Shown: in pieces, positions 13,658-38,219 of the stretch
How the letters are laid out: the number at the start of each line of letters is the position of its first letter
Numbering within the stretch: the first letter of the stretch is position 1
NCBI GenBank assembly: GCA_014904985.1
Contig: MU129065.1
Coordinates: 32,077 to 96,076, forward strand
From: Hydnum rufescens UP504
Lineage: Eukaryota; Basidiomycota; Agaricomycetes; Cantharellales; Hydnaceae
Reading direction: 5' to 3'
Length of the DNA stretch: 64,000 nt
The notes under the pieces: model-generated
Database searches by the model: none
Told to the model about the DNA's origin: nothing
What the model saw: the letters and a program-made list of their open reading frames with translations, nothing else
Translations under genes and position numbers: made by a program

Positions 13658-13666
13658 AGGGGTGCC

Positions 13667-15163
13667 ATGATGAACAGCAGCCTGGTTTCAGGCAGTATGA
13701 ACCCATCCATTAAATCTTTCATGGTGCCAAGTCAGCAATCAAGTGCCTTATCCATCAATGCCAGTAGTACCACAGGAAGCTCTAGGATGTGCAGTTGGGA
13801 CATGAAGTCGACAACAGGTACTGCATCATCAAACTCAGGCCAGTCACATGCCATGCCTGGCTCCTCTCATGGTTTACCCTCAATTATTGAGGATGACAAG
13901 AGCAACTCATCCCATGCCCTAGATGATCGTGTCCCGCTGCTCCCACCACAATCTCAATTGCAATATTCATTAAGTCATTCACCACCTGTCCCTTCTCATT
14001 TGAAGAGATCTTCCCCATGGCCATCCTTATATCATTCGCAACATTTGTCTTCAAGGGCAAGGTATAGCAACAATCACGATTTCCCATCTGAGGGTGATGA
14101 GCTGCCCCAGACTGAAGATGAATACTGCCATCCAGTGAATTCAGAGGGTAGAGATCCATCATATTATGAGAAGGATGGTGCCAAAGTTTCTCAGTATGTT
14201 GAGGCTGAGGACACAGTTGCTCATGGGAGATCAGCCCCCCAGCCACCTCATCATAACTCTCACAAGCCAACTCATCATAACTCCCATGAGCCAACCCATC
14301 ATAACTCCTGTGAGCCAACTCATCATAACTCCCATGAGCTAACTTGTCATAACTCCTGTGAGCCAACTCATCATAACTCTCATGAGCTGTCTCATTTTGG
14401 CTCTCGCAGACTGCCTCATTTTGGCTCTCACAAACCACCTCGCTCTTGCTCTTGCTCACTGTCTCCTGGCTATCACCAACCACCTCCTTCTGGCTCTTGT
14501 GAATTGTCTCCTGGTTCTCATGAATTGCCTCCTGGTTCTCATGAACTGCCTCCTGGTTCTTGTGAACTGCCTCCTGGCTCTTGTGAACCATCTCGTTTTG
14601 TCTCTCACAAGTCGCCTTGTTACAGTTCTCATGAGCCTTCTCATGGGACTCATGCACCTTCCAGTTCTGGCACCCACAATTCCAGTAAAGTCCCTTTTTG
14701 CAGTCCTGAGAAACCATCTGGCTATGATCAGGGCGAGCCTTCTGACCATTATGATGGTGAGTGCTCTAGCCATGACCGCTGCAAGCTATCTTCCCTTCAC
14801 TCTCACAAACCCTCAGGCTCTGGCTATGCTCATAATCCTAGTGAATATGGACCGTCATATAATGAGCTTTCGAGCATTGATCCCTCTGGCCATGATCATG
14901 AATGCTCTACCCACAATCATCACCACCCTTCTAGCCATGACCACAAATGCAAACATCCTGACCGTGGCCATGATCCCAAACATTCCAACCACAACTGTGA
15001 CCACGACCATGAGTGTGAACACTCTGGCCATGAGTGTGAACATTCTGACCATGAGCATGAATGCTCTGACCGCCACCACAAGTGGGAACATCTTGATTGT
15101 GATCATGGACATTTTGACTGCACCCACGAACATTCTGACATTGACTGTGACCATTCTAACTGA
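13667..15163 (+). CDS. His/Ser-rich repeat protein with His-Asp-Cys-rich C-terminus, unknown
   Basis: This is an unbroken frame of 498 codons with no recognised fold. About 190 residues of mixed Ser-rich sequence come first. Then come 24-bp repeats encoding HHNSHEPT-like octapeptides (about 14250-14400), then 21-bp repeats encoding PPGSHEL-like heptapeptides (about 14500-14590). The last ~90 residues are very rich in His, Asp, Glu and Cys (HDHECEHSGHECEHSDHEHE type). Such a tail could bind divalent metal; that is inference. The minus strand is also open over the repeats because their units are multiples of three. I prefer plus because the frame stays open beyond the repeats, and its composition continues the Ser/His-rich tail of gene B, of which it may be a frameshifted extension. 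Confidence 0.45.
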   Translation: MMNSSLVSGSMNPSIKSFMVPSQQSSALSINASSTTGSSRMCSWDMKSTTGTASSNSGQSHAMPGSSHGLPSIIEDDKSNSSHALDDRVPLLPPQSQLQYSLSHSPPVPSHLKRSSPWPSLYHSQHLSSRARYSNNHDFPSEGDELPQTEDEYCHPVNSEGRDPSYYEKDGAKVSQYVEAEDTVAHGRSAPQPPHHNSHKPTHHNSHEPTHHNSCEPTHHNSHELTCHNSCEPTHHNSHELSHFGSRRLPHFGSHKPPRSCSCSLSPGYHQPPPSGSCELSPGSHELPPGSHELPPGSCELPPGSCEPSRFVSHKSPCYSSHEPSHGTHAPSSSGTHNSSKVPFCSPEKPSGYDQGEPSDHYDGECSSHDRCKLSSLHSHKPSGSGYAHNPSEYGPSYNELSSIDPSGHDHECSTHNHHHPSSHDHKCKHPDRGHDPKHSNHNCDHDHECEHSGHECEHSDHEHECSDRHHKWEHLDCDHGHFDCTHEHSDIDCDHSN

Positions 15164-15891
15164 AAGCGAACATCCTAGACAATTCTCATGAATGTGAGTG
15201 CCCCAGCCACAATTCTCATGGATGCTGATCATATATTCTTGTGAACACCCTAGCCATGATCTTTCTAAATCTTTGCATTGCAGGCCTTTCAATTGTAGAC
15301 TTGCCAAAACTACATGTAAATCATGTATCAACTTTCCCATTTCTTCCACTGTCTATAGATACCTCATTGTGCCATTGTATTTAGCATTCTACTGTACATA
15401 CTTTAATTATCTACCAAATTACAGCTGATTTTTGTTTGCCCGCCTGCCGAGAACCCAAAAACATGATGAATGTGTGAGTGTTGCTGTTCCCTGTCCCATG
15501 TTAGAAGGACATCGCCTGAGCAGTGGCTGTTGTGGAGAGCCATATGAGAATTACTTAGAAAAAACATGAGCAGTGAAGGACCCATAGCATTGGGCACAAT
15601 GAATCATGTATAAGAAGCAAAGCAATAATAATGCTACTAAGACTTTAGTGATGCAACAACTCCCAAGTCGAAAAACAAAAAAAATTCTTCACAGCAATCT
15701 TATGACCCAACCTGCCACCAAAATTTTAATGGCTTCTACATTTTTTTTGGTATCAGAGTGAAGTAAAAAGTATTGCTGTGGTAGGCAAGAAGAATCACTG
15801 ACTTGACTATTCAATTGAGCTGAGTCACGACTAGACTTAATTCAATTGAGCCATGCCATGGCAACAGTGATATACAAAGGAACAAAATATA
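15164..15891. other. Convergent intergenic region between gene B/His-rich ORF and KDZ-2
   Basis: I see no gene. It holds the 3' flanks of two convergent transcription units and some A/T runs near 15670-15760. Confidence 0.4.
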
Positions 15892-16378
15892 TTATTTGTC
15901 CTCAGAGGCATATGTAGAGTCATGAAAGATCAGTCTACTTTCACTACATTCCTCATCCTCATCTATCTTCTTGACTACCTCTGAGACAGCAACAGTTACA
16001 CCGCGATCCTCCATACAGTCCTCACTATCCAAATCAAGCTCATGTGCTGGTGTAGATAGAGAATGAATGGGAATGGCTTCCACTGGCACACTACTACTCG
16101 TTGCAAAATGGACAACAGATTGTAGGTCAGTAGGGTAAGGAAGTTGATGCAGTGAATAATCCCATGTTATTCCAAGTTGTTTAAAGACAGAGAATTTACA
16201 GGAAAGATGAAATTGGAGAGTCGAGTCTGTCTCTATAAGGAGATTAGTTGAAGCTTAAAAACATGTATTTAGCACGTACTTGTATCCTGAATTGTGGTCC
16301 AAAGGGCATGGTGTTCTTCTGCATACCAGATGTGCATATTTGTCACTTCATGCTTGATAATTTCAAGCTCAACTCGAC
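15892..16378 (-). pseudogene. KDZ-2 transposase, 3' part (cut off by the inner element)
   Basis: This is the C-terminal coding part of KDZ-2, whose remainder lies at 32040-36.3 kb. From 16378 downward it reads RVELEIIKHEV, IWYAEEHHALW, a short intron (about 16221-16268), then LQFHLSCKFSVFKQLGITWD and an acidic tail ending YASEDK at 15892. The same order (EL...K.E...W..EE, then a Leu-rich helix with TW, then an acidic tail) occurs in KDZ-1 and KDZ-3. After removal of 16379-32039 and one AACTCGAC, the frame runs ...LDSEGCRVELEIIKHEV without interruption. Confidence 0.85.
16371..16378. repeat. Left 8-bp target-site duplication AACTCGAC (inner element)
   Basis: AACTCGAC at 16371-16378 is repeated at 32040-32047, directly outside the inner element's ends. 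Both copies lie in the KDZ-2 coding region. Confidence 0.85.
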
Positions 16379-16420
16379 CAGGCTGGTCAGACAGTCTTAG
16401 GGGCCTTAAAAGGTATGTCA

Positions 16421-16620
16421 TTTTGATATCTGTATAGTGCCTGATAGGCTTGTATTATGTTTGATATCAAAAAGTGATCAAAAGAGTATTTGATAGCAAA
16501 AGAGTTGGGTTTGAGATCAATTTGAGATCAACTTTGGAACTTGTAGAATTCTGCAATGCTTTACTGTAGTGCAGACGAGACATTTTATTATGCAAAGCAT
16601 TTACATGGTTAAAGGAAATA
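16421..16620. other. Subterminal region of the inner element
   Basis: This is non-coding, with several 'tgatatcaaa'-type words. The same words occur in inverted orientation at 31880-31965 near the other end. They may be subterminal transposase-binding repeats; that is inference. Confidence 0.4.
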
Positions 16621-19600
16621 TTATTCTGAATCCAAATCTAGTTCTACAATTGCTTGGTCCACTGCAGCTATCAAACCAGCTTCCTCCAGCTCAAAGAACT
16701 CCTCCAGCTCACCACCCTCCAAGTCATCATCTGAACTTGCATCAAAATCATCAAGATTCCTTCTACTTTGAGAATTATGGTCCGGGCATGGTGGGGTTGT
16801 AGTGGCAACTAAAGATTCTTGTTCCAATTGCACTCGGACATTAGACCAAACACCATCATGTTGATGTAGCGCCAAAGGCATTCAAACCAAGTCCCAACTT
16901 GGAGCACCAGGAGCAATGGGCACTTGGACTATGTCCTTTTTCCAAGCTGTCATCCAGTCATACAGTTGGCGTGCCCACAGAAGCCCAAAATACGAGACAT
17001 CTTCATCCTTGGATCCCATGAAGAGGTCCATTGCAGCTGAATACTCTTCATGGAACCACGCCCGAAGGTTGGCATGCTCACCCTTGCACCTCTCAAGCTC
17101 CTGCTGGCAGCTGGCCACCTCCTGTGAGATCCAGATACCTTCTTTGACTGAGGGATCTGCCAACCAAGGGGGCACAACTCCATCTGGGAAATCCACAATA
17201 TCGCCTTGAGAATCTTCCCATATATCTTGATCCACATCCAGCTTGTACAGGCCATCCATTGTGAGCATTGGCGGAATGTATGCATCTCTCCGAATACCTC
17301 CCCTTCCCCTAAGTGCAACCAGTTCCTTTAGCCTTGCATTGTATTTCTTTACAGTGGCCTCAATCTCGCTGGATCGGTTTTTCACAGCTTTCTCAACATG
17401 GCCTTTGTCTTCTGGTCCAAGATGCAACTCAAGTTCATGTGGTCCAATGTGGCAAGCTCGAACTTCCTAGCCCTCAGCTTCTTCAGAAGTTGCTCACGAA
17501 GTGCATGGAGGTTCAGCTGAATATTGACCCATTTATCCTTCTTGAGCCTATTTAACTCAGATGCAGATGCATGGTCAGTTAGCCGCAGCTCATCAGTCTT
17601 CTTGTTGATCGTGGTCTCCAATCACCAGATGGCCTCCTTCAGCAGCCTGACTTTTTCCTGCCACTCCACCTGCACTTCATTGCTTTTGTGTCATCTTGGA
17701 CCAAATCATTCCCCTCAGCAATCAAATCCTTGAGATTCCCTTGCTGAGCCTCAAGGGTTGCCGTCAGAGATATGATCCGTTCCACAGCTCAGGCACCTTT
17801 CATCTGAGACTGGCATGAAACAGGTTGGCTGTGATATTCTCGTTGGGCTTTGAACTGCTCCATTAAGTAACTGGGAGAGCGGTCACCGAGCTTCATCTCT
17901 GCCTCTTCTAGGCGGTGCTGCAACTGATCAATTTGACCTTGGAGCCACTTTCCCATTCCCATGTGCTTCCCATCATCAATGTGCTCCACCTGGAGGTCAA
18001 GAATGAAGAGACGCGGGTGATAGCCTGTCACCCACAACCCAGGGATAAGCCTGTGAAGCTCACTCCAAAACTGCTCACACCCTTCGCCATCTGAGAGTCC
18101 CCAGAGCTCTGATTTGCGAGGATGATACCAGAGCTGGCATGCCCATTGATGACTGTATGCATGGAAAATCAAAACCCCCCACTCCAAGCGAGGCAGCCAT
18201 TCCGGCATGAATCTCCACTTTTTCAGAGTCTGGTCCATCTGACAGCCAATGTCATACAGGGCCCCAACTCTCCAGTGACTCAGTACATGCTTCAGGACAG
18301 TCTCCAACAGCACAAAGACATAGAACTGCTTCTCTCCTGCAGTCCACATGCTTGCAACAGCAAGTGGTATGTCATGACGGCACAGTAGAGCTATTACCCC
18401 AGTATCTTCAAAATACTGGGTTGACACCTTGATGTGATCTTCATCTGCAGCAATAAATGGCTGCTGACATGCATCATAGGTCGAGTTTGGTGCATGGAGG
18501 CCTGGTTCCACCGATATCATCCTCCAGGTGATCTGCATAATAATCGGTGCCCTCATTGGCTGTGTGTTTTGGTCCCATGCATGCTGGCCTTGCAGGATGA
18601 GTCTCCAGGATTTTCCTTTCCCAGGACTCCAAATAGTCCCTTGACAACACAATTGTCTTGGGTGAAGTGACTGGGGGATCGCATGCCCCTGTCTCTCCCT
18701 CATGACCATGTCGTCAGTCTTCATTGCGGATCCAGCTTAAGTTGGAAATTTGCATCAATGCAAACTATGAGCTGGACTCTACAAGTTTCATTGCAGTCAG
18801 AATGACTATTATCCCAGCTTGTCACAGATAATAGCCTACTCACGGCATATTACATGTGTCTGTATGATTTCCTCCAAAACAAAGTGGGCATCGCGACCTC
18901 AAGTATTCACTGGGGCAGGTATGGTCGGCAGGAATGAAATTTGAGCAGACGTCAGGAGGCAGATTGGCAGACACATGAGTGAGAATGGTGGCAGGAGCAT
19001 TAACTGAAGCATTTGCTAGGAGTTGAGTTTGCAAACAGCTTCAGATCGCTCTGAACATTGACATATCCCCACTCATGTACTGGTGTTCTCTCGTCCAACT
19101 CTGAGATCAACCCTCTCTTATCATCCTGCACAATTCGAGTAATCTCTGCCCTGACCAACCAAACAAGCACCTGATAGTGCACAAGTGCATTCGCAAAGCG
19201 TCGCCGAAATGAATCTCCTGTTGCAAACTCATACCCATGAGCTTTGAGGTACTTGACCAGAGTTGCGGCCCATGCTCTTTCATTGGGTGCCATATGAAGA
19301 AATAGGGAGGCCACAAATTCGAGCATGTCGAGACTGACTGCCAATGTGGGGAAAAGAGGTGCACATGGGAAGAAACCACACTTCGACAAGCTGGATGGCA
19401 GCCAGACGGCATGGACAGACCATCAGCACAACCTCTTCCAGTTGCTCCATGGAAATGCAGAGAACCCGAAGGGGTCGAGGTGCCCCACATCTACATACTG
19501 CAGGACTATGGGGCTCTTCTGCCGAGAGGTCTGAGAAGCACCCCCAAGCGACCTTCATGTAGGGATGGATAAGGCTGGGTAACACCTCTCTGTTCCATGT

Positions 19601-19941
19601 ATCTGCTTGAGCAAGTTTACGAAGTGCATGCTGAGATCATTTGTCCTTCATTACTTGTATTTTACTCTGGCTCGTTTCAGCTGCATATTGCACATCCACA
19701 TGATCCCAGCTGAAGTACTCGGAACCTGTAAGGGGAGGATCAGGAGGGAATCGAGGCGAGACCAATGTTTCGAGGGAGGGCAAAGGCAAATTGGCAATGT
19801 CTCAGGCAGATGCAGATATAGAAGGGGCCATCATGTGCCTAGGCCTTTTGGATGGAGGGGGCTCATGCTCACTACCTCGATTTGGAGGTAGTTTTTGTTT
19901 TTGGTGTGTTTGTTTCTCCCTCCTCTTCTTGGCAGCCACAG
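16621..19941 (-). pseudogene. KDZ-1 transposase with CxC2-like domain (frameshifted)
   Basis: This is the cut-and-paste transposase of the inner element. The N-terminus is basic (AAKKRREKQTHQKQK, about 19930). Next come WNREVLPSLIHPYM and the CxC2-like cluster (CRCGAPRPLRVLCISM, CPCRLAAIQLV), then APLFPTLAVSLDMLEFVASL and DSFRRRFANALVHYQVLV. The zinc-knuckle-like RCPLCFGG is near 18860. Catalytic candidates are Asp in CIDANFQLK (about 18740-18764), Asp in LYDIGCQ (about 18250) and Glu in DGEGCEQFW (about 18080). The HAYSHQWACQLWYHP block and C-terminal LYKLDVDQDIWED follow, ending in an acidic tail. A frameshift near 19385, TGA at 19637 and frame changes near 18500-18730 make this copy inactive as read. 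Introns were judged by eye. Confidence 0.85.
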
Positions 19942-20089
19942 ACTGCAGCCAACATTATGTGAAAGCAGAGCAAGAAACTCGGAAATGGTATTGATGAGGC
20001 CATACAATAGGAACGAATGATAGGCGAGGTGGCATGTGGGTGAGAAAAAACTTGACAATGGATGGATGGCCGATTCACGCAAGAGACTG

Positions 20090-21470
20090 CACTGCATGAC
20101 TGGCAAGAATAATGGTGACTGCAGGTGAAACTGCGGTGTGACACTACCTGATGCTTTGAGATGGTGACAGGGTAGTGAGAAAAAACTCGAAAAAAGAGCT
20201 GGTTCACGCAAGAGATGCACAGATAATGGCAACTGCAGATGAAACTGCAGTGTGACACTACCCGATGCTTTGAGGGAGGGTGACAGGATGATGTACAGGT
20301 GAGGTAACGCTTGAAAAAAGAGCTAGTTCACACAAGAGATGGCACAGATAGTGGCAACTGCAGACAGAACTGCAGTGTGACACTACCCAATGCTTTGAGA
20401 GAGGGTGATGAGATGATGTATGGGTGAGATAAAAAAGAGCTGGTTCACACAAGAGGTGGCACAGATAGTGGCGACTGCAGATGGAACTGTGGTGTGACAC
20501 TACCCGATGCTTTGAGAGAGGGTGATGAGATGGTGTATGGGCGAGATAACAGTCGAAAAAAAGAGCTGGTTCACTCAAGAGATGGCACAGATAGTGGTGA
20601 CTGCAGACAAAACTGTGGTGTGACACTACCCAATGCTTTGAGAGAGGGTGATGAGATGATGTATGGGTGAGATAAAAAAGAGCCGGTTCGCAGCAAGAGG
20701 TGGCACGGATAGTGGCGACTGTGGACAAAACTGTGGTGTGACACTACCTGATGCTTTGAGGGAGGGTGACGAGATGATGTATGGGCAAGATAACAGTTGA
20801 AAAAAAGAGCTGGTTCGCTCGAGAGATGGCACGGATAGTGGCAACTGCAGACAAAACCGCGGTGTGACACTACCCAATGCTTTGAGAGAGGGTGACGAGA
20901 TGATGTATGGGTGAGATATAAAAGAGCTGGTTCGCACAAGAAGTGGCATGGATAGTGGCAACTGCGGACAAAACCGCGGTGACACTACCCAGTGCCTTGA
21001 GAGAGGGCGATGAGGTGACGTGTGAGCGAGATAATGCTCAGAAAAAAGAGCTGGTTTGTGTAATAAATAGCATGGATAGTGGTGACTGCAGTTGAAACTG
21101 CAGTGTGACACTACCCGGTGCCTTGAGGAGGGTGATGAGGTGATGTGTGAGTGAGATAATGCTTGAACAAACAGAGGATCCATGCAAGAGATGGCACGGA
21201 TAGTGGTGACTGCAAAACTGTGGTGTGACACTACCCAGTGCCTTGAGAGAGGGCGACGAGGTGACGGGTGAGTGAGATAATGTTCAAAAACAACAGAGGA
21301 TCTGTGCAAGAACACAAATAGTGGTGACTGCAGTCAAAACTGCAGTGTGACACTACCCAGTGCCTTGAGTGAGATAACACTGGAAAAAAACAGGGGATCT
21401 GCACAAGAGAAGGCACAACTCAGTCAAAACTGTAGTGTGACACTACCCGGTGCCTTGAGAGAGAGCAGCA
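20090..21470. repeat. Satellite array, ~122-bp monomer with ~244-bp dimeric order
   Basis: About 12 copies carry gtgtgacactacc at 20136, 20250, 20374, 20492, 20618, 20736, 20862, about 20978, 21102, 21223, 21344 and 21435. From 20374 the spacing alternates near 118 and 126. Two monomer types alternate: one with 'gataacagtcgaaaaaaag', one with 'gagataaaaaag'. The array lies just upstream of KDZ-1. Long minus-strand frames through it (SVTPQF...PLSVP) are by-products of repetition. Confidence 0.9.
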
Positions 21471-21679
21471 ATGTCACATCGACATTACTATTAATAATAT
21501 TGCACATCGTGACAAATCTGTATGCTACATTTTTGTGCGGGAATGAGTGGAATGATAGCACCAGGACATCATGCAGGTGGGGAAGTGGCGAAGGTGGGAA
21601 AAGAAAGGCCATTAAAAGAAAGGGGGTACAGTAGAAAGGGGTGGAAAGAAGGGGCCATGGATTTGAAAAGGGCCGTAGC

Positions 21680-23814
21680 TCAAGGAATAAAATACTGTTG
21701 GGGTAGACAATGTATGCAGACACCATCAATCGTGCCCTTCACACTTGCATCACTGCCCCCATTGGACCAAACCAGAACCATGGGGTCCTGGTGTTTCTTC
21801 TGAAACTTCGGAAACCTCAATTGCATTGTTGCAGAAGCTAAATCAGTTGAGCTAGATTCAGCACTCGAAGCCACATTGGTGGCAGGTGATTTCCCCTCGC
21901 TCCATACATGCTTTGCAGTAGAGTCCTTTTCCACAGACTTGGTCACCTTCTGCTTCGAGTTCAACGTCTCGATTGGGCGAACACGGGGCGGCTCCTTTCT
22001 GTCATCCACAAGCTCCACTTGGGGAATGCCACTGGATTACTTGCCAAAGATGAAGGCCTTTGATACACCCCGGAGTGCAGCCATCCCATGTCTTGACAAA
22101 GGCACTCTCGGTCCTTAGGGTCTCTGGCGATGGCTGCCAATGACTTGGTAGAGTTGCCCCTCCTCGTCATCGTCAAAAACCACTTGATTTGATTGTCCTT
22201 GAGGCATTCAAACCCCCACAATCAAAGTTGTTTTTCTGAATTAGGCATACATTCCGACACCATGATTGGTATGTTGGGTTTGCCTTTGAGAATGGTTGAA
22301 TACGGATGTACACCAATGAATGACATTTTCGCATGTTCGACAGAATCAGAAGACACCTCAAGAACAAGGGCTGATAACTGGATGTGTTTTCGAGAATGAG
22401 AATTGAAACCAAAAGAGAGCGCAGTGCAGAACGTACTGAATATTGGCCCCAAACTGATACCAGTTGGACCTCAGCTATTATGCACCATCCTACCAGCATA
22501 CCTAATCCCTTCAAAAACAGCTTCTCTTTGCGGTCGATCCAATGGTTGGGTTGAAATCCACTGTCCATAAGGGGGACACCCATGCAAACGAAGAGATTGG
22601 ATAACTCGACCATCACGAGAAACAAGGGGCTAATGCGAAGCAGTGAATTTTGCACTGAGCCTGGGCTCATGGTAGATTCTCAGACTTCAAGGAGAGTACT
22701 GTATGGTAGAGTGTAGATGGCCTGAAGTCAAGAAAGAATTTTGAATCCGAACTGATCCAAAACAGAAAACCAGACTGAGCTAGGTTGATGAAATAATGTA
22801 CATACCATACAGCTCGCAAACAATTTTGGAATCCAATACACCCATTCTGCTCAAATTCTACTGAAGAAAAAGCTGTGGAAGCCATACCAGAATCCAGTCC
22901 ACCCACATAGGAACCAGAACCACCATCTCTGCTCATTGTAAAGAATGAAGCAGAAATCCTCAAATTAGGGGTCTCCTCAAGGTAAACACACATTACTGAA
23001 TATTCAATTTCCTCTTTTATTTAAAAAAAAGATAACAACAAAATTAGAATTGGTTGCTACAGTATATACTTGACTGTGGACTTCCAAATCCTCAGTGGAT
23101 AGTGGAGCGCAAAAAAACAACAGGTGAACATCCACCATTTGCCACTGACTTGCTCGTGACTGTTAATGTCTTGGGGTTTGCTGTTCCCTCGGACCTACAC
23201 TCAGACCCCAGCATGGAACAGTGGATGAAGCCACAAAACTGGAGAATGATCAATCGATGACAAAGGTGAAGCTGGGGGATAACTGCAAGTGTGGGAGGGG
23301 AAATACAGGTGATCACTTGTTCCATGGTCTCTGAATGGTGGGGCATCTGGGTCAGGGTGTTTCTTCGGCATCCGATTCCCATAGGGGGATGGGTGAGAGG
23401 TTGTCCTGGACGTCGAATGAAAAGTTCAAGAGGGAGTTGGGTATATGTTCATACTGAGTAGTCATAGAAAGCCTGGATGGCTACAGGGTCCTGTGGAGGC
23501 TTGAATGCTACAGGGCAGATTTAAGAATCATGTACACCCAAATATGTTCATGAGCACCTACAAGAAGTTGGTATCCACCCCTGCTTGCTTTGTTGAATGA
23601 TATCCAATGCCTCTTTCCAAAGAGCATAATACCTGCGCATGACCTCCCTGCCAGCATCCTCCTCCCAGTCAGCGATGTACACTTGTGGTTCATGAGCTTG
23701 TGAGAACTCAAAGTGTGTAGAAGGGACAGTGGACACGATACCAGAGAGGCTACTTCCCAAGGAATATGGTGATGAGTAGAGTCCAGGGACTTCTTCTGCA
23801 ATCATCTCGACCAT
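21680..23814 (-). pseudogene. Unknown minus-strand gene G of the inner element
   Basis: I do not recognise this gene. Read from the 5' end: an exon with YIADWEEDAGREVMRRYYAL, then KEALDIIQQSKQGW (about 23580-23690); a middle part with frames that change often (22.2-23.4 kb); then HPYSTILKGKPNIPIMVSEC, WFLTMTRRGNSTKSLAAIAR and ELVDDRKEPPRVRPIETLN (21.7-22.3 kb). Blocks of protein-like composition separated by short stop-rich gaps suggest a multi-exon gene, perhaps decayed. It is divergent from gene E, with about 400 bp between them. Confidence 0.35.
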
Positions 23815-26239
23815 AGAAGATCAAGAGACAGATGTCCCCATGATCTAACGTGGGTAGAACTTGTGCTTAGAGGCCGAAATGTGTCCCCTGCACTAAGAAT
23901 TGTAACATCGATGCTTGGCTGAGACCCTGACTTGTTACAATCCGTCGCCAGGGGGGTATCGGGAGACATGAAGATAACTGTCGCCGAATGGGATGCAGTA
24001 TGGTTTGAGGTGATGCTCTGAGTAAATGTTTGGTTGAATTGCAGCTGACAGAGGCCGGGTATACTCAGAAGAAGACCCTGATGGGGTGAGTGTAGGTTGA
24101 CAATTAGGGTGTGTGGTACAAAATGGCTCGAAAGGGTTGACACTTCAATCCAAATCGACATGATGCAATGTTTGACCAGAAGCAGAATTTGGTCGGAAGC
24201 AAAATAACTTACTGCTACTATGGAACCTACGTCAACCTCAGGTACCCATGCACAGCCTTCCACCCTTGCAGCAAATTGCAGCAAGCTCAGTCAGCTGTCT
24301 GGGCCTGACACAGTTCCATGTCAGCACTCTCAGGATGGGGCTCCAGATTCTGAGCCTGCTTCTGACCTCACTCTCCAGAGTGGGCAAAGTTGCACCTCTA
24401 ATCAAGAATATTCTGGATCAAGCCCTATGACCTGGTCCAAGGATGGAGATGCTGAGGCAGTGCCAGTCGATGCTGCTTGGAGTGATCTGTTTGACAATCG
24501 GGAGAAGCTCGAAATGTATTCAAGAAGCCGACAGTTGCTGTTGAAACATAAGTCATACCATTGGTTCTCAAGTTTTTTTTAAATTTGTTAGCTGAATATG
24601 AATCATTTGGTGGATGCAGCATCGGCATGCTGTTACTTGCAGAAGGAGTGGTCATTGGTGTTCACAAGTAGCCAAAGGCACTTCCAATATTTCGGTGTCT
24701 CCTCAACACTCCACCCCCCTGTTCATCAAGCAGGGGTCCTGGATTCAGGTGATTATACTCTCAGGCCAACATTATTGGATGCAAATGCCCCCTATCATGC
24801 ATTCATAACCTGTACTCAGTTGGACCCACCTTCCTATACCCTGTGATGAATGTGCAGAACAACGGAGTCAAGATGATTTTGCCTTACTATCAATCGTTAT
24901 TCACCAAATTTTTCTCATTGTGTTGTTGTGCTCTTGAACACTGGTCTTCTGTCACGAGGTACCTTAAAGTGCTGGATGTCCCCCTTCCCCCTACAAAACC
25001 AACTAGTCTTGGTCGCTCCACCTCACTCGAATTCATACCCGACTCCGTTTGGGCAAGTGGGGATGTTCACTTGAATGTACTCACGAGGTTTGCTTATGAC
25101 TGCCGAGGGTATGCTGAATACGTGATGCATCTTGCCATCGACCACATTGCCTGCACCTACAACCTGGACCTTCCTGTCTTTGGGATAGATGATCAACAAG
25201 TAGGGGCTGTATATCGCTTACCTCTTACTCCTGCAGATTGTCAAGCAGTAGATGATCTTGTGTGAATGGGTACACCAGTCTTTGGTGTCATGGAGTATCC
25301 ACATCGCAACCGTCGTGATACTGTGCCCAATTGTTGTCCTGACTCTCCCGAGGCAGCCACAGCTGCAGCAGCCGAATATTTTGCTGCAATGAAGAAGTGG
25401 GACGAGCAGAATGTCGATGTCACTGAGTATATCGTACACATCGAGGTTCCACTGGTTCATGTGCAGCACCCAGTCAATTGGTTCATCAGGCTGCATTTGG
25501 GATATCCTGGTGAACTTGATCACAATGATCGTCCTCTCTGTGAAGCTGCATCACACATTTTGCCTGCTGGCGAAATTTGCGAGACTGATGTGGTTGCTTT
25601 ATGGGACTTCCTTGGTTGTGGCCCATGGCCTGCTGCCCAGGCATACAAGGTGCCAAAGTTCTATTACAAATACGAATTCAGGGAGGTGATAAAAATCTAT
25701 GTCAATGAGGACGACGGTCCAATGGCTTCTTCATCGAAGGTGGTGGGTGATAACATGGAGGATCATTGTTTCAATATCTACAATGACATCATGGGGAACC
25801 CCTATGACGAGGATGACAATAATTGGGAGAATGAGGGGGACTACAATCTCAATCCTACTCCTCACTTGGATGCAAAACAGGAGGCTGAAGCAAAGGCCCT
25901 AGTACTCACCGCCAAAAGTGGAGATGGTACTGCAAAGTCTCAAATTACTAAAGTTCTTCAAGGTGCCCAGGGCAAGAAGAGGGGGAAATGGCACAATGGG
26001 AAGCCTCCCCAAACTGACTTTGAGACTGCAGTTATGCAATTGTGGAGATCCTCCGATGGCCCCTCAAAGGTGAAAAAAAAGCAGGCGAAAAAACTTGCCC
26101 AGGAGAGATGGTGTGCTGAGGCAGACACAGCAGCAGCCCCCCCAGATCAGAGTGCTGGAGGAGGCTCAAAGGCTTGAAGCAGAAAGACTGAAATGGGAAG
26201 CAGAAGAGCATGTGCACCTTCAACAGGGTGGACATGCCT

Positions 26240-26400
26240 CTGTTGCACCTGCTCCCTCTTCTGTTCCTGCCCTCCAGTTCCTGCTCCTCCAGTTCCTGCC
26301 CTCCAGTTCCTGCCCCTCCAGTTCCTGCCCTTCCTGCCCTCCAGTTCCTGCCCTCCAGTTCCTGCCCTCCGGTTCCTGCCCTTCCTGTTCCTTCTGCCCT
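26240..26400 (+). repeat. Minisatellite 'cctgccctccagtt' in gene E linker
   Basis: About ten imperfect 12-21 bp units of the type ttcctgccctccag encode PVPALQF-like peptides. It sits directly before the 18-bp RS-type array. Confidence 0.8.
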
Positions 26401-26559
26401 GCTTCTGTGCTGAATCCTGCTTGGCCACGCACTCCGACCCCGACCCCTACTTCTCTTGAGCCTGGTTCTCCTCGCACTCCCACGTATTCTCCTGTCACTC
26501 CAGTGAGTGACCCATTTCCACCTTGTGCACCATCTCCCCATCGTTTGTCCCCGCCTCCT

Positions 26560-26880
26560 CATCAAGCATGATCCCCTCATCATTCGCGATCCCCTCATCA
26601 TTCACGAACCCCTCATCATTTGCGATCCCCTCATCATGCATGATCCCCTCGTCATGCATGATCCCCTCATCGTGTATGATCCCCTCGTCGTGCACGATCC
26701 CCTCATCGTGCATGATCCCCTCGTCATGCACAATCCCCTCATCGTGCATGATCCCCTTGTCGTGCACAATCCCCTCGTCGTGCATGATCCCCTCGTCGTG
26801 CACAATCCCCTCGTCGTGCACAATCCCCTCGTCGTGCATGATCCCCTCATCGTGCATGATCCCCTTGTCATGTGCCATCT
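26560..26880 (+). repeat. 18-bp minisatellite encoding decayed RSPRRA-type repeats
   Basis: About 17 units of gatcccctcgtcgtgcat type. In the frame that continues gene E's coiled-coil exon the units read RSPHHS, RTPHHL, RSPHHA, SPRRAR, SPRHAQ and so on, with TGA where the unit's first CGA is expected. The other plus frames read HDPLVV- and MIPSSC-type repeats and are by-products. Confidence 0.7.
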
Positions 26881-28432
26881 CCTCTTCATCGTGTGCCATC
26901 TCCCCTCATGTGTCATTCCCTCCCTGCCATGCACCATTTTGCTGCTGGTCCCTGTCTCCCCCCAGCCATGCCTGGTCCCACCATCACTGGGCACCTTCTC
27001 CCTGCCCTGCTCCATCTTCTTTTTGTCAGTCCCCTCTCCTCCTCATCGAGCCTGGTCTCCTGCTCATCAAGGTCCGTCCTTCCACTCTGGCCACCCCAAA
27101 GGAAGGCCAAGATCACCCCTGGAGCCACCAAGGGGGCCACAAGCAGTGCAACAAGAACTGCCAAGGGGACAACCTGGGGAGTTGGGAAGGCAATGGGAGC
27201 CATCAAGCTCCCAAGTGTCCCAAGAGCTTGAGCGCCGGAGCCATGGCTGCTTCAGGGATGATCATGATGGGCAGATGCGGGATGGACCTTGGCAGAGTGC
27301 CTCGTCTTCAAAGGCACCAACCCATCAGCCCCTGCCACAGCCAGCATGGAGGCCATCCCTCTCTCCATCCCAAGAGTATGCACATCCAGGCCCATCCTCA
27401 CTGCATCGCCGCAGTCAGACACTGCCGCTGTCCTCTGGACTGCCGCCCAGTTGTCAGGATCCTCCATCACCACCCCAACCTGAGGCTACACCTCTCCTGA
27501 GTCACTTAGGGCCTGCACCAACACCGTTTCCTCAAGGCTCTGTGGCACCTATTGCCAGTGTTGCACCAAGTGTTTCAGATGTGAGCACACCGTGGCCTCC
27601 ACCAGAATGCCTGAGGCTAGCCCAATGGTATGCATTGGATATTGCAGGTGTCGATGGCCAAGAGGACCCCTTGACCTGGGTGCACCAGAACTCTCATCTG
27701 GGTGTGCTGGCAGCATGGAGGGTGAAACCCATTTGGAAGAAGGGCGCGATGTACCACATGTACCTCCTCTTCAAGGACGTGGCCAAATGAGATTCGTGTT
27801 GGAGTGTCTTGGCATCTTTGTGTGGTGGCAAGACACTTCTCCCTTTCCTGTACACGGATACACTGGTGAATTGTTTTGGAGTCACTGAAGTAAGGTACAT
27901 GCAGGAGGTGTACATCAATGCAATCTCAACTGCTGAGATCCAGGAGCTCCTGGCTGTTGGACCACACCCTTACATGACACCTGGTGATGCTATCCCTGAG
28001 ATGCTCAACTATATTTGGTATCCTGCATTACTCAACCCTTGTCCTGCTCCTCCCAAGCATGAGCAAACTCGTGCCATGATTAGTGTTGAGTTTGACACTG
28101 AATGGCTCAGCAGACGACTCCATCATGCATGAAAGGAAGACCCAGGCTCTGTGACAGTCAGTATGCGATGCATGGAGATGCAGATGATCATGCACAGGGC
28201 TCTGGCAAAGGGTACTGCTTTGGCTTTCTGTGAGAACATTTGGCCAGTGCCTGGGGGCACAATGATATCTGACATACGCCAGATCTCCAGATGGGCATAT
28301 GCTGATCTTGGAGGGAGCGAGGTTCATTCGAGCATGGAGAATTTTGGATGAACAAGGATCCGGCTGGCATGGCGTATTGTCTTGGAGTTAAATAGGGACC
28401 AGCCTCGATTCCACAAGTGGATTGATGAGTAG

Positions 28433-29199
28433 GTATATCTCTAGCCTTACTCTTGTTCATATGCTATTTGACCATCCCCTTCGCCACCAGCCCATTTCCC
28501 CACACTGCCAGCTCATTGCTGCCTTCCCTCTGCCATTTCCTGCATCCCGTCATTGCCTTCGACCTCCCGCATTTTCCTCTCTATCCTCCATTCCTTGACA
28601 TTAATATTATCATCTTACATATATCGCACATGTACTCATTCATACAATAATATATACATCCATCTGTACTGAAGAATCGTTTACTGGCAATGTCCGGGAA
28701 TATTGTTCACTCACACAACATTAACAGTCTCTGGTGGAGTCTGGTTTTGGACAGTGTGACCATACACTCCCTATTTCCTGCTCCACTGAAGACTTTCCAT
28801 CCACTACACTCCTTCTACTGGCTTTTGGTCATCTTCCAACAAACCTGCGAAGTCCCAGGGCTACACCTTCCACTCCTACCTCTTGCCAGCCTTTGGGGGT
28901 TCTTGGAGAGTCTGGTCAAAGACAGTGCACACTGCACCCCTATTGCCTGCTTTCCATCTGCTTTTTTTGGCATCTCATTCACTCCTGCTGCACTTGCTGT
29001 CTTCCAACTACCCTACACTTTCAATCCCTCAAAGCCTGGTTTAGGACAGCACAGTTTTTTGCGCTCTCCCTATTCCTACTTTGCACCATGTGATATCTTG
29101 CCATCCGTTCCCTCAATGTTGTAGCCTGAAGTTGTGAGGGTGCACTTTCTGTACCCCCACTTCTACTACTTTTTTTCATGAGCTGACTCCTAGCCTGAT
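28433..29199. other. Intergenic between genes E and C
   Basis: I see no gene with support. It contains C/T-rich stretches (about 28480-28600) that may be the promoter side of gene C. Confidence 0.35.
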
Positions 29200-31614
29200 A
29201 TGCCACCTAAGACATATCAAGCCTGAAAAAGGACCACAAGGCCTGCTGCCACCCCGGCAGGTTGAATGGCCCAGTCCTCTACAATAACCAATGACACCAC
29301 AGTCCCTTCAACGAGCAGTGAATCTGCTAGTGGGCCCCAGACAAGAGAGTCTTCTGACACAACTGGCTGAAGCTTCCAGCACCCCCATTACGCGCCCTGT
29401 CCCTCAGCATAATGAGTGGTTTATTGACATTCTGTTGTTGCGATCACACCAACAAATGGTTCAGCTTGCTCCACCTCGATCTAGAAACCATCCCAGTGTA
29501 CCTACAGTGCGTTTCCTATCCATTTTATTTCCTAGATTGCTTTAAATTGACTTCCACTACAGTCCATTCCTTATTCTTCGAATCCTGCTGGTCACTCCCC
29601 ATCTCCTGCTGGTTCTCCTGCTCCATTTCCTGGTCTTTCTCATGCTCAATCACCCCATATTCCTTGTGCTCAATCGCCCCATATTCCTTGTGCTCAATCA
29701 CCCCGTATTCCTCATGCTCAATCACCCCATATTCCTCGTGCTCAATCACCCCGTATTCCTCATGCTCAATCGCCCTGTATTCCTCACACTCAATCGCCCC
29801 ATATTCATCGTGCTCAATCTCACAATTGCTCTTGTGGTTGTCCTCACACTCAGTCTCCTGCTCAGTCCCCTGCTCAGGCCGCCACTTGGTCTCCCCAGCC
29901 CCCAAGTCATACCTCATCTCACACATTTGGCAATTCTCCATTTGTTGGGGATTTTGATCATGAGGTCGAGCCTTCTGGTCTATATCATCAGCATGAAAAT
30001 TCAGTCATTTTGGATCCACCAAATCCAAATGATGGGAATCCAGATGTTGAGGATGACGACTTGGTTGCTGAGGAGGGTGACACTGCACAAATCAAATCAC
30101 AGGGTGGACCATTTATGGACGAACAAGTCACTGAGATCAGAGGCATTGTTGAATCCATGAACCGTGAGCTTGAGCACAAGGCAAAAGAGTGGGACAGGCC
30201 TCTTGAGTCTGTGATGCGGATCAGGAACCTTGCAATAAGCATGAGAGAATGGCAAAGTGCTGGGAATCCATGGAATGCATATCAGGCCTCATATGAGAAG
30301 GACCCCAAGCCAGACCATCCCCATCACAAGGATGTGGAAAAAGTCATACAGCCAGCCTATCATGAGCTCATTGCTGCACATGGTGGTGAAGACTCCAATG
30401 CATGGAAAAAGAAATCGAAGGAGCTTGTGGATCAGCACAATGCCTCAAAGGCAGCCCAAGCTTTTGATATTGCCCTCTCACTGGCTGCGATGGGCAAAGT
30501 CATTAAGCAGACTACGAAACGCTGGAAGGATGACTTGAAATGGATGGCCACTATGAACATCCACAGGTTCTGTGGAATCGTCAGTGGCATTCCTGATGAG
30601 GTGGCTTCAAAACAGAATGCTCTATTCACTGGCTCACCAGTGATGAAGGACTGGCTAAATTTGTCTTTCCCAAAAGACAGTACATCATTGAAGATGATTC
30701 ATTCCCACATCCTGGTCTATCAGGGGCAACATCTTTTACGCCAAAATCAGAAGCAAAAGATTCCAAAGTCTATGCATCTGATGCAGAAGGAGATTTCGGA
30801 GGAGCTCAATAACCTTCTAACTCCTCTGATTGGTCAGGTACTGCGTATACCTTGGGCAAGTCTCCCCCGATTCCTTGTCAACAACAAGTTGAAGATTGAG
30901 AATTGGGTTACGGAATCCGAATTTCCAAGTCTCTTGTCCCTTGATGTCACTGTAGTCCAAATGGAGAGTTGGAAGAAACTTTGGCATACCTTTTTCCAGC
31001 CATCGGCCAATTCAACAAAGGTCTGAGTTACTCAGCTCAAGCATATCGCCCAGGAGAATAATGGGAGGCTTCCCAGTGACACTGTAATCATCTCTGATCA
31101 ATTCAATAACCCACTCCTGACTGTTGCTCAAGTGGATGGACCGGGGGAGCCAAAAGAGTCCAATGCCAACACTGCCAATGGGACTCCCATCGCAGGCGGT
31201 GCTTCTGGGCCCAGGAAGCGGGCCTCTCAAGGTGATGGCCACTCACAGAAGAAAAAGAGGATGGGCCCTAAGCATCCAATGTCTGCTGAATTCATCGATG
31301 AGCCCAGTGACGATGATGGCCCTGCAACAGATACTTTTGAAAATCCAGGTGGAGCAAGTTCCATTGGTGGTCAATCTAGTGGAACTACTTGGGGTGGTGC
31401 TGGGTCTTCTGTTGATGGTGTTGTCAATGATAAATTTAGTGGGAATGCTTCAAGTGGTGTCATCAATGGTCCAATGGACTGGGCCAGGGGATATGGTCAA
31501 AACCAGCAAGAATACAACCCACATGATGATCCCTTGATGGCATCCCTGTTTGGGAGGTACCCTGATTTGAACCTTGGCTTGAATCAAGGGTTTGATGATG
31601 GATTTCCTCTCTAA
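29200..31614 (+). pseudogene. KDZ-linked family gene C (best-preserved of three)
   Basis: Start MPPKTYQA at 29200. The first exon is basic (KRTTRPAATPAG) and carries TGA at 29224, 29263 and 29368, each readable as decayed CGA. A second long exon (from about 29570) has AQSPHIPH repeats, an acidic stretch (about 30015-30075) and the family core: AGNPWNAYQASYEKDPK, VEKVIQPAYHELIAAHGG, NAWKKKSKELVDQHN, TTKRWKDDLKWMATMNIHRF, SKQNALFTGSPVMKDWL, PWASLPRFLVNNKLKIENW. After one TGA at 31024 the frame continues with a basic cluster (GPRKRASQGDGHSQKKKR) and a Gly/Ser/Asp-rich tail ending GFPL at 31614. No catalytic motif is recognised. The layout (acidic N-part, helical core, nuclear signal, acidic tail) suggests a nuclear accessory protein; that is inference. 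Confidence 0.6.
29636..29830 (+). repeat. 24-bp repeat encoding AQSPHIPH octapeptides
   Basis: About eight units of ctcaatcaccccatattcct type lie within gene C. In the gene's frame they encode AQSPHIPH or AQSPRIPH. Some codon changes between units are C/T at CpG. Confidence 0.85.
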
Positions 31615-32039
31615 ATTCTTCCACCTGATCTCTGCTTGTGGATGTCTTGGATGTGTGCTTTGCATGCTTTTGCATGCTTCATGCACTTTGAGTACCTCTG
31701 CCTTCCCTTGGCCTTTTTTAAGACAAATGTTTTCCCTTCATTTGACATACTACACCTATTTCTTGGATTTAATTTCTTAATCTCTGAAGAACTCGACTTC
31801 TTGTTAATTGCTCTATGCATATATAACACATTAATTGACTTGATATCTGCTGCTGTACCATGAGAAACCTTAAAGGTTGTGAGTTTGATATCAAAATCCC
31901 CAAGGGCAGACTTATGGATTGACCTAAGGTCACCCTCCTGAAATTATTTGATATCAAAGGATTCTGATGCCTGCTAGGCTTTTGATTTGACACAGTTTGA
32001 CATACCTATTAAGGCCCCTCTAAGTGGCTGACTGAGGTG
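31615..32039. other. Right subterminal region of the inner element
   Basis: Non-coding DNA between gene C's stop and the element end. It has 'tttgatatcaaa' words matching the left subterminal region in reverse orientation, then the inverted repeat 31998-32039. Confidence 0.5.
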
Positions 32040-35000
32040 AACTCGACATCCTTCTGAATCCAGATACGCAATAATGGCTACATGCATATTTTCATCTGCC
32101 AGCCATTGGGGTGGTGGACAATCATCTCCTAGTCCCACCTCAAGAATATGCAAGCCTTTCCATATTATGCCATCAATGTCCAATGAGAACAACCCCTTGC
32201 AGTCGAGTTTTTCTGGTTGAATTGCACCATGCAGTGCTTCTTCCCAGGCATCCAGCATATGCTGGATTTCCTTATTGAGTTCGTTAAGGCAGCACAGGAC
32301 TGCCAGTTGTCGCTTCTTGTCTGATTGTGCCTTGTGAACCCAAGCTTTGTGATCTAGAGGCAATTTAGGAATCAGATCAAGTTTCATACACTTTAAGAGT
32401 TATGCTCACCAAGTATATGGCTTTGGTAGTCCTCGATACACTGCGTAATTGTGAATTTATGACCAACCAAGGCCGAAACTAGCTGTTGATAGTGAGCATG
32501 AGCACAAATTAGTGCATCATACCATTGGGAACTCTTGATCTTGTCCAAATCATGTCTCATCACCCTGTCTTGAAGTAGTAATTTGGCCTCCCACTTGGTA
32601 AGCTGTAATTCAACTTTCTCTAATGATGACCGCAATTGATCAAGGCGATCAAGGAGTTTGCCACAATGTAGAGACGAGGGATCATGAAGAACGGCAGTGG
32701 CTTGGCGATTTGTAATTGATGTGATCTGTCACCGAAGTGATGTTCGAGTCCAAACCAGATTCAGTATTCATTCAATTGCTTTTGCCCCAGCATCCTTTTC
32801 TGGGACTTGGATTAACTCGTGTCAGCAAATACAAGTTGAATAGGCACAGGAAATGCATGAGGTGGCTGAGCTTGCTGAGTAGACAATTGCTCTGCCCATG
32901 CTTCTTTGATTTCATTGAGTGGGATCTGCAAATGGTCGAGCACTGCTTCTGCTTCCTCTAGTTTGGCCATGGCATCTTCAAACTGGCACTTCTGCCAGCT
33001 CGCAAGTTTGAGAAGATTCTGCTTGTTGATATATGCTTGTTTGGTGTTGATTACGAATAAACGGCAATGAAACTGGTACAAGACAGGTAATCCCAGGGAT
33101 GTGAGAGGAGTGCAATGAACACTTACTCCAGAGATTCAACAAGTCGGAATAATCCCGTTGAGGAGATTCCATTCTCTCTCACATCCTTCACCATCCGTAC
33201 ATCCAAATTCCAGATTCTTATAAGGATGGTATGACAGCTGGCAAGGCCACTGATGGCCATATGCATGGAAAACCAGAGTTGCAAATTTGAGCCATGGGAG
33301 GCATTTCAGCAAAAGCTGCCACTACCACAGATCCCCAGTCAGCATAGGAAATAGAAAAATAGCCATAACATACACATTCCATTTCATGATGCATAGTGCA
33401 GATGACATCATAAAAAAACCCCATGGTGAATGACTCTGGAAGCTCTCCGAGGAGCTTCTGCATCATAGCAAGCATAAAGTACTGTTTTTCACCATTGGGA
33501 CCCATATTGATGAACCAGATTACATTGTCATGTTGACAGACCATGACAATGAGCCCTTTATCTGAATAGTCCTTAGATATTCTGATATGGTAGTCCTTAG
33601 CAGTGAGGTAAGAGTCCTTGCATTGATCGATAACATCATTCATGACTGCCATTCCTTTTTCATGAACATTCAGAGAGGGTTTCCTACCAGCCAACTTCAC
33701 AGCAGCCTTAGTCTCAGTATAGTAGTCGCTCATTGCAGATGTCTCCGACATTGACACAAACAGGTCCTGTGGGACTGGTGACCCAAAAGGGTAATCTTGC
33801 TCACCATGCCTATCTTGTTGCTGTTGGGTTGCACACCCATCACCTGAAACAAATGCACAGGGCCTAACTATGTATTAGAGACTTCATGGCATGGATATTG
33901 TAAAAGGACATACTGGCCATCCTTTGGATACTCAATTCCTCCAAAGCACGCAGGGCAGTGGTATTGGAGGTAGATGCTGGGGTGGGTATTGTCCATAGTT
34001 GGCTTGTGGTCCTCGGGATTTGTGTGATATGAACAAGTATATGGATTTGCTGCAAGGCTTTCCAAGGTGGGCACTGTTGATTTGAGAGACAACGACTTAA
34101 GTAGGGATGATTTGAGCAGAGACGAACAGAGTGGGGAGGAATTGAGTGATGACGAATCAAGTGGCAATGAATCAAGCAACAATGAATCAGGCAGCAATGA
34201 ATCAAGCAGTGATGAATCAAGTGGCGACGAATCAGGCAGCGATGAATCAGGCAGTGACAAATCAAGCAGTGACAAATCAAGTGGTGACAAATCAAGCAAT
34301 GACAAATCAAGTGGCGATGAATCAAGCAGTGACAAATCAAGTGGCGATGAATCAAGCAGTGACAAATCAAGTGGCGATGAATCAAGCAGCGACAAATCAA
34401 GTGGCGATGAATCAAGCAGTGACAAATCAAGTGGCGATGAATCAAGCAGTGACAAATCAAGTGGCGATGAATCAAGCAGTGACAAATCAAGTGGCGATGA
34501 ATCAAGCAGTGACAAATCAAGTGGCGATGAATCAAGCAGTGACAAATCAAGTGGCGACAAATCAAGTGGCGACAAATCAAGTGGCAACAAATCAAGTGGC
34601 AACAAATCAAGTGGCGACAAATCAAGTGGCGACAAATCAAGTGGCGACAAATCAAGTGGCGACAAATCAAGTGGCGACAAATCAAGTGGTGACAAATCAA
34701 GTGGCGACAAATCAAGTGGCAACAAATCAAGTGGTGATGAATCAAGTGGCAACAAATCAAGTGGCAACAAATCAAGTGGCAACAAATCAAGTGGCAACAA
34801 ATCAAGTGGCAACAAATCAAGCGGTGACAAGTCAAGTGGCAATGAATCAAGTGACGATGAATCAAGTGGTGACCATTCCAGGGATCATAATCCATACTCT
34901 TACTCCTGCTTTCTGGCCAATACAACTGCACTATTCACAACTTCCTCTGCAGAACTGACCAAGACCTCATACAATTGCAGTGCTCTCCCAAAGCAATGCC

Positions 35001-36282
35001 ATAGTGTATCCTAAGAAAAGCATGTAAATTGCAGTAGACCTTAGAAAATTAAAATGCACTACATACATCACCACCCAAGACATATCCTCACTTGTGCAAA
35101 AATATTTGTAAGGAGTCCATCCATCCCTGGATATCTGGTTGCTGTACCTGGAAGACCGTTGATGTGAAATCAAGAAGATCCAGATCGACTGTGAGTGTTG
35201 GATATACTGGGGCAGATGGGAAAAGACCGAGTTCGAGTAGAAGGAATGCTGCAGGGCAACAGTTGCAAACAGTTAAAGTCATCTCATGAATACCTACAAA
35301 AAAAAGACATGAGATAAGGGCATGAACTACGAATTTACGTGTCGACCCATACTTTTGACACAAATGCAAGTAATACTTAGTGTCCTGGCAGAACATTGAG
35401 CACTGCCATCACACACTGGTAAATGGACATCAAATGTGTCAGCAGCATCCCAATTTGTAGCTGCAACTTGTCTCAATAATGGGACAATAAGATGAGGAAT
35501 GAGTTCATTCCACCGCTGAGCTAGGGCTGCATGCGATGTTGACACACACAACTTGTGTTGCTTTACAGGTGCTGGAGCATTAGCCATGAATGGCTGATTT
35601 AGTCCGTCATCTTCGAATGTCATAATAGGGTCCCAGGAAGTAGAATTGGCATGGGGCAATGAAGAATCAGTGGGAGTGGGGTTGGCATTACTGAAGGGTG
35701 CCAAAACTGGATCCTTGGCCTGGTCTGACAACGAAGTCAGGTGGGGAGATAAACATGCAGCATCCTTGATCTGATATAGCCACGTCTCGCCAAAATTAAC
35801 ATCCCATTGTAGTTGACTGTGTCTTTCATGAAGCCTTGGTTTTCAAGGTAATATAGGTGGAATGCAGATTTTATCAGCTGGGATGGTATTGGGAGGGATT
35901 ATAGGATTGGGGGACTCAATAGGGATGCCCATTGTCTTGAAAAATGTTGAGCTGAAGCCAAGTCATTTGAGTTCCAAGTTCGCATTGATACCATTGGAGC
36001 GTCATGGATGTTTTTGGCTCTGACAAGAACGAGCTGTGTCTGTCAATGGAGGGGCCTCTTGCAGATAATCGGTAGACAGTGAGTGGCATGCATTACGAAC
36101 TAAGTCAGGAACCAATGGGTCATTAGACCCAGCACTCCCAAGGTCATGCCTTCTCTTTTGAGATCGATACAATGAAGGCTGCATTGCAGGATGGGATAGC
36201 AAGGCTGCGATAGCCTGAGTTTCCTGGTAGTGGGGGCAGTGTGTGGATTAGACAAGCCACTGGCTGAAGGTTGGATTGTCAA
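32040..36282 (-). pseudogene. KDZ-2 transposase, 5' and catalytic part (outer element)
   Basis: This is the outer element's transposase, interrupted at 32040 by the inner element. From the 5' end: a basic/disordered part (YRSQKRRHDLGSAG, about 36170) with TGA at 36002; ALAQRWNELIPHLIVPLL; a CxC2-like cluster (CSARTLSITCIC, then LTVCNCCPAAFLL); GLFPSAPVYPTLTVDLDLLDF; a long in-frame minisatellite (34.1-34.9 kb); YLQYHCPACFGG (about 33940); GDGCATQQQQ (first Asp candidate, about 33840); MVCQHDNVIWFINM; FFYDVICT (second Asp, about 33410); HAYGHQWPCQLSYHP; TDGEGCERE (Glu, about 33190); coiled-coil segments; and KGLFSLDIDGIIWKG (about 32190). TGA at 33136 lies in PTC-ISG, where related transposases have Arg. 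The start codon is uncertain. Confidence 0.83.
34144..34872. repeat. 15-bp coding minisatellite inside KDZ-2 (~48 copies)
   Basis: Units of tcaagtggcgacaaa type run unbroken. On the minus strand, in the KDZ-2 frame that leads into YLQYHCPACFGG, they encode DLSPL pentapeptides. Part of the array has a 30-bp higher order (gcgatgaatcaagcagtgac alternating). All six frames are open because 15 is a multiple of three and the unit has no stop; the plus-strand SSGDK frame is a by-product. Confidence 0.92.
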
Positions 36283-36939
36283 AGTGCAAGGGTTTGATAT
36301 GTGAAGGATATGGTTTCCATCCTCTGGAATACATGGGTGCTTGGCGATTTCCCTATGCTGACAAGATGACTTCTGTAGCTTTGATGAGGCAGCAGCAGCA
36401 GGTGGTAGTGTCTCGGATGTAGATGAATTTGAGATGGGGAGGTTATGGCTTCCATTATGTTGCGTGTGCAGATTCTTGTTGATGGGTACCCATTCGAAGG
36501 GAGTTCGAGCTTCCTACATGATGCCACTGGCCACCCCCTCATTGTGGATGACTGCTCATAGACATAGTTAAGGTTGATGCTGATACTCATGCACGTGAGT
36601 CCAACAATACAGAACTCAACTATGAGCAAAGCCAGTGCATTTCACAGCAGCTCTCGATAAGGTGGACTGAATGGGGTACAACCACCCATTGTAATAAGGA
36701 TGCTTGTGAATCAGTGACGCAGTGGGCAAAACAAGATCGCATGAAAATGAGAATGCGAGGCAGGTACAGAACACATGAGAAGACATAGAGGAATGCAAGA
36801 GAGATTTGAGCAGTATTTAGGTGCCAGAGCACCAAGGAGTTAAGAAAATGGTACGCAGACTGCGATTGATCAAGGCAATGAGGCAAACACAACATTGCAC
36901 AACTGATTCCGCTGGATTTTGCCCTCACCAAACAATGCA

Positions 36940-37900: not shown

Positions 37901-38219
37901 CAAATGGAGGGGGTTCAGCAGGCAGCTCTAGAATAGTATACAGTGGCTGGAGTGAAAGTAATGGTTCATATTGCCTCAAAATGGGGCCTAGGTGATGGAC
38001 TCACAAGCAAGATGTAAAGCAAGATCAGCAAGATGTGTCCTAGGTTCAGGAACTCAACCAAAAAAACAACGAACATGGGGCAAGTGGTCCTATAGTGAGG
38101 CTAGTTATTCATAAACACGATATTAGTATAGCAAACCAGACAGTAGGATTCTTTTATTGCAAAGGAGCACCCAGACAGGTCAGGGAAGGTAAAGTTAGGG
38201 GGGGGGGTAATCCGCGCGT

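Follow-up and report, generated by a model that had tools for sequence, protein, structure and literature searches.

The question raised by this locus is whether a KDZ transposon of 15.7 kb really lies inside the transposase gene of another KDZ transposon, as a preliminary description of the DNA had claimed, and how such an arrangement would have arisen. The DNA comes from Hydnum rufescens, which is described as an ectomycorrhizal mushroom of the order Cantharellales (PMC7550596). The stretch analysed, hereafter the window, is 64 kb long (C157:32077-96076), and comparisons were made against the genome of strain UP504 (63.2 Mb, 539 contigs). We conclude that the inserted element, E1, is almost certainly nested in the transposase gene of its host, KDZ-2, a reading that is well supported and amounts to ordinary transposon biology. 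The features that delimit E1, as placed by genome copies and family-wide ends, are as follows.

16379..32039: E1, the inserted KDZ transposon, 15,661 bp
16371..16378: left copy of the E1 target-site duplication, AACTCGAC
32040..32047: right copy of the E1 target-site duplication, AACTCGAC
16379..16420, plus strand: E1 left end, an imperfect terminal inverted repeat beginning CAGGCTGGTCAG
31998..32039, minus strand: E1 right end, an imperfect terminal inverted repeat ending CTGACTGAGGTG

The octamers stand flush with both borders of E1, exactly where the preliminary description had put them. The octamer alone is little proof of insertion, because it occurs six times in the window (both strands counted) and an octamer was common to 7 of 200,000 random position pairs in a chance control; its placement is what matters. 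The inverted ends that had been described were also recovered, as arms of 35 nt (16386-16420 and 31998-32032) that are 83% complementary. Copies fetched from the rest of the genome share these borders: 36 of 37 left ends start with CAGGCTGGTCAGA, and 33 of 34 right ends close in AGGTG. A branch that is 71-80% identical contributed seven of the 37. The odd one out in both sets is on contig C120, which is more decayed, although its left end still reads CAGG in the same register. All four bases were seen at the position next outside the family's ends, on the left and right sides alike. The motif CACCTCAG begins the E1 right end and both ends of KDZ-2.

The gene into which E1 was inserted is represented in the window by three parts, the third being the likely last exon.

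32040..33874, minus strand: KDZ-2 transposase gene, upstream part, given as an unspliced span, with a PF18758 match in 33221-33874
16269..16378, minus strand: KDZ-2 transposase frame, downstream (C-terminal) part, beginning VELEIIKHEVTNMHIWYAEEHHALW
15895..16254, minus strand: likely last KDZ-2 transposase exon, with an acidic tail (by eye), matching an open frame of 120 residues in contig C5

The site of E1 was empty in all three close KDZ-2 copies of the same genome (contigs C5, C463 and C165), with the octamer present once in each. In these copies similarity to the window runs as far as 16378 and resumes at 32040, and the matches on the two sides share exactly 8 bp; the site is therefore empty in each of them. 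The octamer reads AACTCGAC in C5, whereas C463 and C165 have AACTCAAC, a CpG-type change. When the joined flanks were compared without gaps over 160 bp, C463 agreed at 152 and C165 at 151 positions. The same ungapped comparison gave 76/80 for the left flank of C5 and only 59/80 for the right, where a gapped alignment reached 92.5%.

The reading frame tells the same story on the minus strand, where DENMHVAIIAYLDSEGCR runs to the junction (..LDSEGCR) and continues in one frame as VELEIIKHEVTNMHIWYAEEHHALW (RVELEIIKHEV..), which bears out the joined frame proposed in the preliminary description. The C5 copy reads through the junction without interruption (LDLEGCRVELEIIKCEV), while in C463 and C165 the frame is kept but the junction codon is TGA, C463 having a second stop upstream of the junction. 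The downstream part had further been proposed to supply the C-terminal motifs of the transposase, and this is supported by an alignment of the C5 junction stretch to the C-terminus of P0002, an E1-family Hydnum transposase (17/46 identical, E = 5e-8 in a single comparison). Motifs common to the two are P.WLAD, ELE..K.E..N and W..EE; by eye, a counterpart of the acidic tail at 15895-16254 ends the transposase frame of the E1 copy on contig C2. Duplication, inverted ends and restored frame had been counted as three independent signals. All three are present, but the restored frame is not fully independent, because the frame must by definition return once a true insertion is taken out along with one duplication.

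KDZ-2 proved to be a complete transposon in its own right, so that the whole is a 29.2-kb nest, which is new from this analysis.

9360..38582: KDZ-2, the host transposon, 29,223 bp with its insert and 13,554 bp minus E1 and one octamer
9352..9359: left copy of the KDZ-2 target-site duplication, CATGCATT
38583..38590: right copy of the KDZ-2 target-site duplication, CATGCATT
9360..9949, plus strand: KDZ-2 left terminal inverted repeat, about 590 bp, pairing with 37995-38582
37995..38582, minus strand: KDZ-2 right terminal inverted repeat

Before trimming, the inverted repeats covered 9353-9949 and 37995-38589 and were aligned by blastn at 84% over 605 columns. Among 40 matches to this type of end elsewhere in the genome, 37 started at 9356-9362 and 23 exactly at 9360 (40 of 95 candidates scored; 16 short internal matches and the window's own two left out). 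The close relatives of KDZ-2 on C5, C463 and C165 are 92-95% identical, and farther ones, such as those on C135, C104 and C53, 65-69%. The C165 copy also ends at 9360, where direct duplication is absent; we considered whether it was an allele of the window locus and rejected this, as its similarity to the window breaks off at 9360 and does not extend into the outer flank, making it a separate insertion. Its outer flanks (L115 1894-2600 and L119/L116) are mutually inverted, at 85% over 740 aligned columns, and may belong to a larger palindromic element or to a scaffold that folds back. A short repeat at 3628-3728 of the window is matched at 77-80% in two other copies, L032 (4561-4660) and L033 (1925-2024), and there the matches directly adjoin KDZ-2 DNA, as if a third transposon had cut in.

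The contents of E1 are listed next.

16885..17466, minus strand: E1 transposase gene, C-terminal part
17792..18736, minus strand: KDZ domain PF18758 of the E1 transposase, from a profile match
19003..19422, minus strand: E1 transposase gene, N-terminal piece
20101..21373: tandem array with units of about 117-126 bp
24753..26174, plus strand: cargo gene A, function unassigned, in pieces 24753-25262 and 25266-26174 with one stop codon between
29551..31611, plus strand: cargo gene B, function unassigned, within the NCBI model BS47DRAFT_1398070 (744 aa)

The KDZ domain of E1 is matched over positions 50-217 of the 217-position profile (E 1.9e-44, 152.4 bits, cut-off 26.6) and that of KDZ-2 over positions 3-132 (E 2.2e-16, 60.7 bits, same cut-off). 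The E1 transposase is broken: the copy on C2 has an open frame of 721 residues, in which PF18758 is matched from profile position 2, and in the window the corresponding stretch is broken up into shorter frames, with several small differences in length. At 53131-53931 of the window, on the minus strand, there is a third KDZ transposase domain (168.4 bits, profile 2-217, two TGA inside), around which no element ends were identified.

Judged by their database relatives, cargo A and B are known almost only from Hydnum rufescens, a name borne by 12 of the 13 relatives of A and 40 of the 41 relatives of B at E <= 0.001. The cargo A and B pieces that were scanned had no Pfam match at E <= 0.01, and cargo B had no sequence relative in the PDB at E <= 0.1. 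The AlphaFold model of cargo B is poor (mean pLDDT 50.0, pTM 0.31), with confident helices at about residues 331-370, and none of its 75 Foldseek matches reached E <= 0.001. By eye only, a confidently helical stretch of cargo B (NPWNAYQ..AWKKK) looks HMG-box-like, a candidate reading that was set aside. We also considered a TET/JBP cargo and rejected it, since among 12 E1 open frames compared with Pfam 11 had no match and the twelfth was the KDZ domain. A six-frame search of the genome, which very divergent TET-like proteins would escape, gave no PF20515 or PF12851 match on C157. Genome-wide it returned two PF20515 matches, on C240 (over the cut-off) and C38 (under it), and one PF12851 match, at C5:56001 (under the cut-off).

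E1 DNA forms a large family in this genome and KDZ-2 DNA a small one. With the left end of E1 as query, at least 21 other matches were 93-97% identical over essentially all of its 1122 bases (44 matches listed; 40 of 156 candidates scored). With the right end, at least 34 others stopped no more than nine bases from the right end in the window, and one was partial (42 matches listed; 40 of 143 candidates scored). The copy on C2 is colinear with the entire E1 at 90-96% identity, both cargo genes included. In the copy on C232 (L037), an inner stretch corresponding to 21.3-24.6 kb of the window is inverted, with an N gap within. Both ends of the family were found on 12 contigs. An exact 7-bp duplication flanks the ends on C113, 7 of 8 positions agree on C19 and 6 of 8 on C50, where the ends are 54 kb apart; the remaining nine, including the colinear copies on C2 and C232, have at most 4 of 8 matching. 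The ends stand in the right order within 26 kb on 8 of the 12, and a duplication was found in only C113 and C19. The end pairs on C50, C9, C83 and C120 are separated by more than 44 kb or stand in a wrong order and probably come from different elements; the duplications missing from E1 copies, or from KDZ-2 on C165, may have been lost to recombination or reflect assembly joins or ends of different elements. The duplication length of the E1 family is thus given mainly by the window (8), C113 (7) and C19 (7 of 8). The left flanks of the E1-family copies on C178 and C50 (L050 and L051) are 99.75% identical over 800 bp, as in a duplicated region or a second haplotype.

From the boundaries, the duplications, the empty sites of the same genome, the split frame and the KDZ domains observed in both elements, we infer a cut-and-paste mechanism and an order of events. 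KDZ-2 would have inserted earlier, with its own 8-bp duplication. E1, 15.7 kb long and one of many copies of a KDZ DNA transposon family in Hydnum rufescens, would then have been inserted by a KDZ transposase, supplied by E1 while intact or by a sister copy. Its target would have been the octamer in the C-terminal coding part of KDZ-2, so that 8 bp were duplicated and the transposase gene was split. The E1 transposase would have decayed later, largely by C-to-T change at CpG.

Two other explanations have to be weighed against this. Unrelated contig pieces may have been joined within repeats during assembly, mimicking a nested insertion; the E1 family is multi-copy, N gaps occur at other loci (L034 on C165 and L037 on C232), and the absence of duplications from most paired E1 copies means that misjoins may exist elsewhere. 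Here, however, an exact octamer flush with family-wide ends is hardly to be expected of a misjoin, the two host halves taken together fit three empty copies, overlapping there by exactly 8 bp, and the window is without any run of N, which together make a chimera very improbable. It could also be that KDZ transposases favour KDZ DNA and that the nest did not arise by chance. KDZ-transposase coding sequence was seen in 5 of 70 E1-family flanks of about 800 bp each (37 left and 33 right, the right flank on C120 excluded), an uncontrolled count, and in one of the five, the second copy on C86, it extends to the junction. Yet nesting by chance is expected because KDZ elements are so abundant in this genome (at least 154 domain matches, 150 of 584 candidates scored), the flanks have no common target motif by eye, and three close KDZ-2 copies are empty at the E1 site. 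We consider such targeting unlikely, and retain a nested insertion of E1 into KDZ-2.

The decay of E1 was measured against C2, picked as reference because it is a full-length copy, over 12,745 aligned sites (L035/L036), excluding the stretches around tandem repeats. E1 has T at 415 of the 1292 CpG cytosines of C2, compared with 42 of its 5207 other cytosines; there were 73 other changes, and the opposite direction accounted for 12/472. A comparison with C232 agrees: it covered 3667 sites, and 95 of the 101 C-to-T changes in them fell at CpG. Each of the four NCG contexts is affected, at 25-43%, TCG being lowest, and the observed/expected ratio of CpG is 0.68-0.74 in C2 and 0.26-0.32 in E1. On this substitution pattern, the likeliest cause would be cytosine methylation with deamination, or a RIP-like process. 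Rhizoctonia solani AG8 belongs to the same order as Hydnum. C-to-T hypermutation biased to CpG is described in that fungus (PMC4014442) and in repeats of Tricholoma matsutake (PMC6980582), which rules out the decay seen here as a first for Agaricomycotina, although PMC12730594 states that hypermutation was not detected in that group. Unlike in those two reports, as far as their descriptions go, the decay here comes from a comparison of two copies within a single transposon family.

Both E1 and KDZ-2 belong to the KDZ superfamily by their PF18758 domains, and both have a short target duplication, of 8 bp, in the window. The Kyakuja elements of Laccaria are described as having duplications of 7 bp and a TET/JBP gene but lacking terminal inverted repeats (Kojima 2025, PMC12730594). 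E1 resembles the Kyakuja of Agaricomycotina, as presented there, in its KDZ transposase, its 5'-CA..TG-3' termini and the extra genes it carries. In contrast to Kyakuja, however, E1 and KDZ-2 as they stand in the window show inverted repeats and duplications of 8 bp, and Pfam models detected no TET/JBP gene in E1; given the 8 bp and the inverted ends, they are not filed as Kyakuja. Target duplications of 8 bp are given for Zisupton and a Dileera family, and terminal inverted repeats for Zisupton (PMC12730594); E1 and KDZ-2 resemble the former two in duplication length and Zisupton in inverted repeats, a likeness drawn from published descriptions. Nested DNA transposons, for example Mutator-like elements (PMC3903597), follow the same principle, with the difference that host and guest here are of one superfamily.

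The 2025 survey of TET-carrying transposons (PMC12730594) does not mention Hydnum or Cantharell- in its main text. No earlier report of the E1/KDZ-2 nest was found in the literature searched, which covered few subscription papers; a search for nested fungal KDZ transposases matched one paper, on a brown alga. Ends, duplications and empty sites are now given for two KDZ families of Hydnum rufescens, and the decay of CpG sites in KDZ elements that lack a TET cargo offers a testable contrast with fungi whose KDZ elements carry TET. Speculatively, E1 may stand for a KDZ lineage without TET/JBP, with two private cargo genes, that is being lost to a C-to-T process acting about 40 times more strongly at CpG than at other cytosines. 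If this were true, cargo A or B could provide an alternative factor for anti-silencing or DNA binding, and Hydnum rufescens would be a natural counterpart to the hosts of TET-carrying KDZ elements, in which the protection of such elements by TET against decay could be tested.
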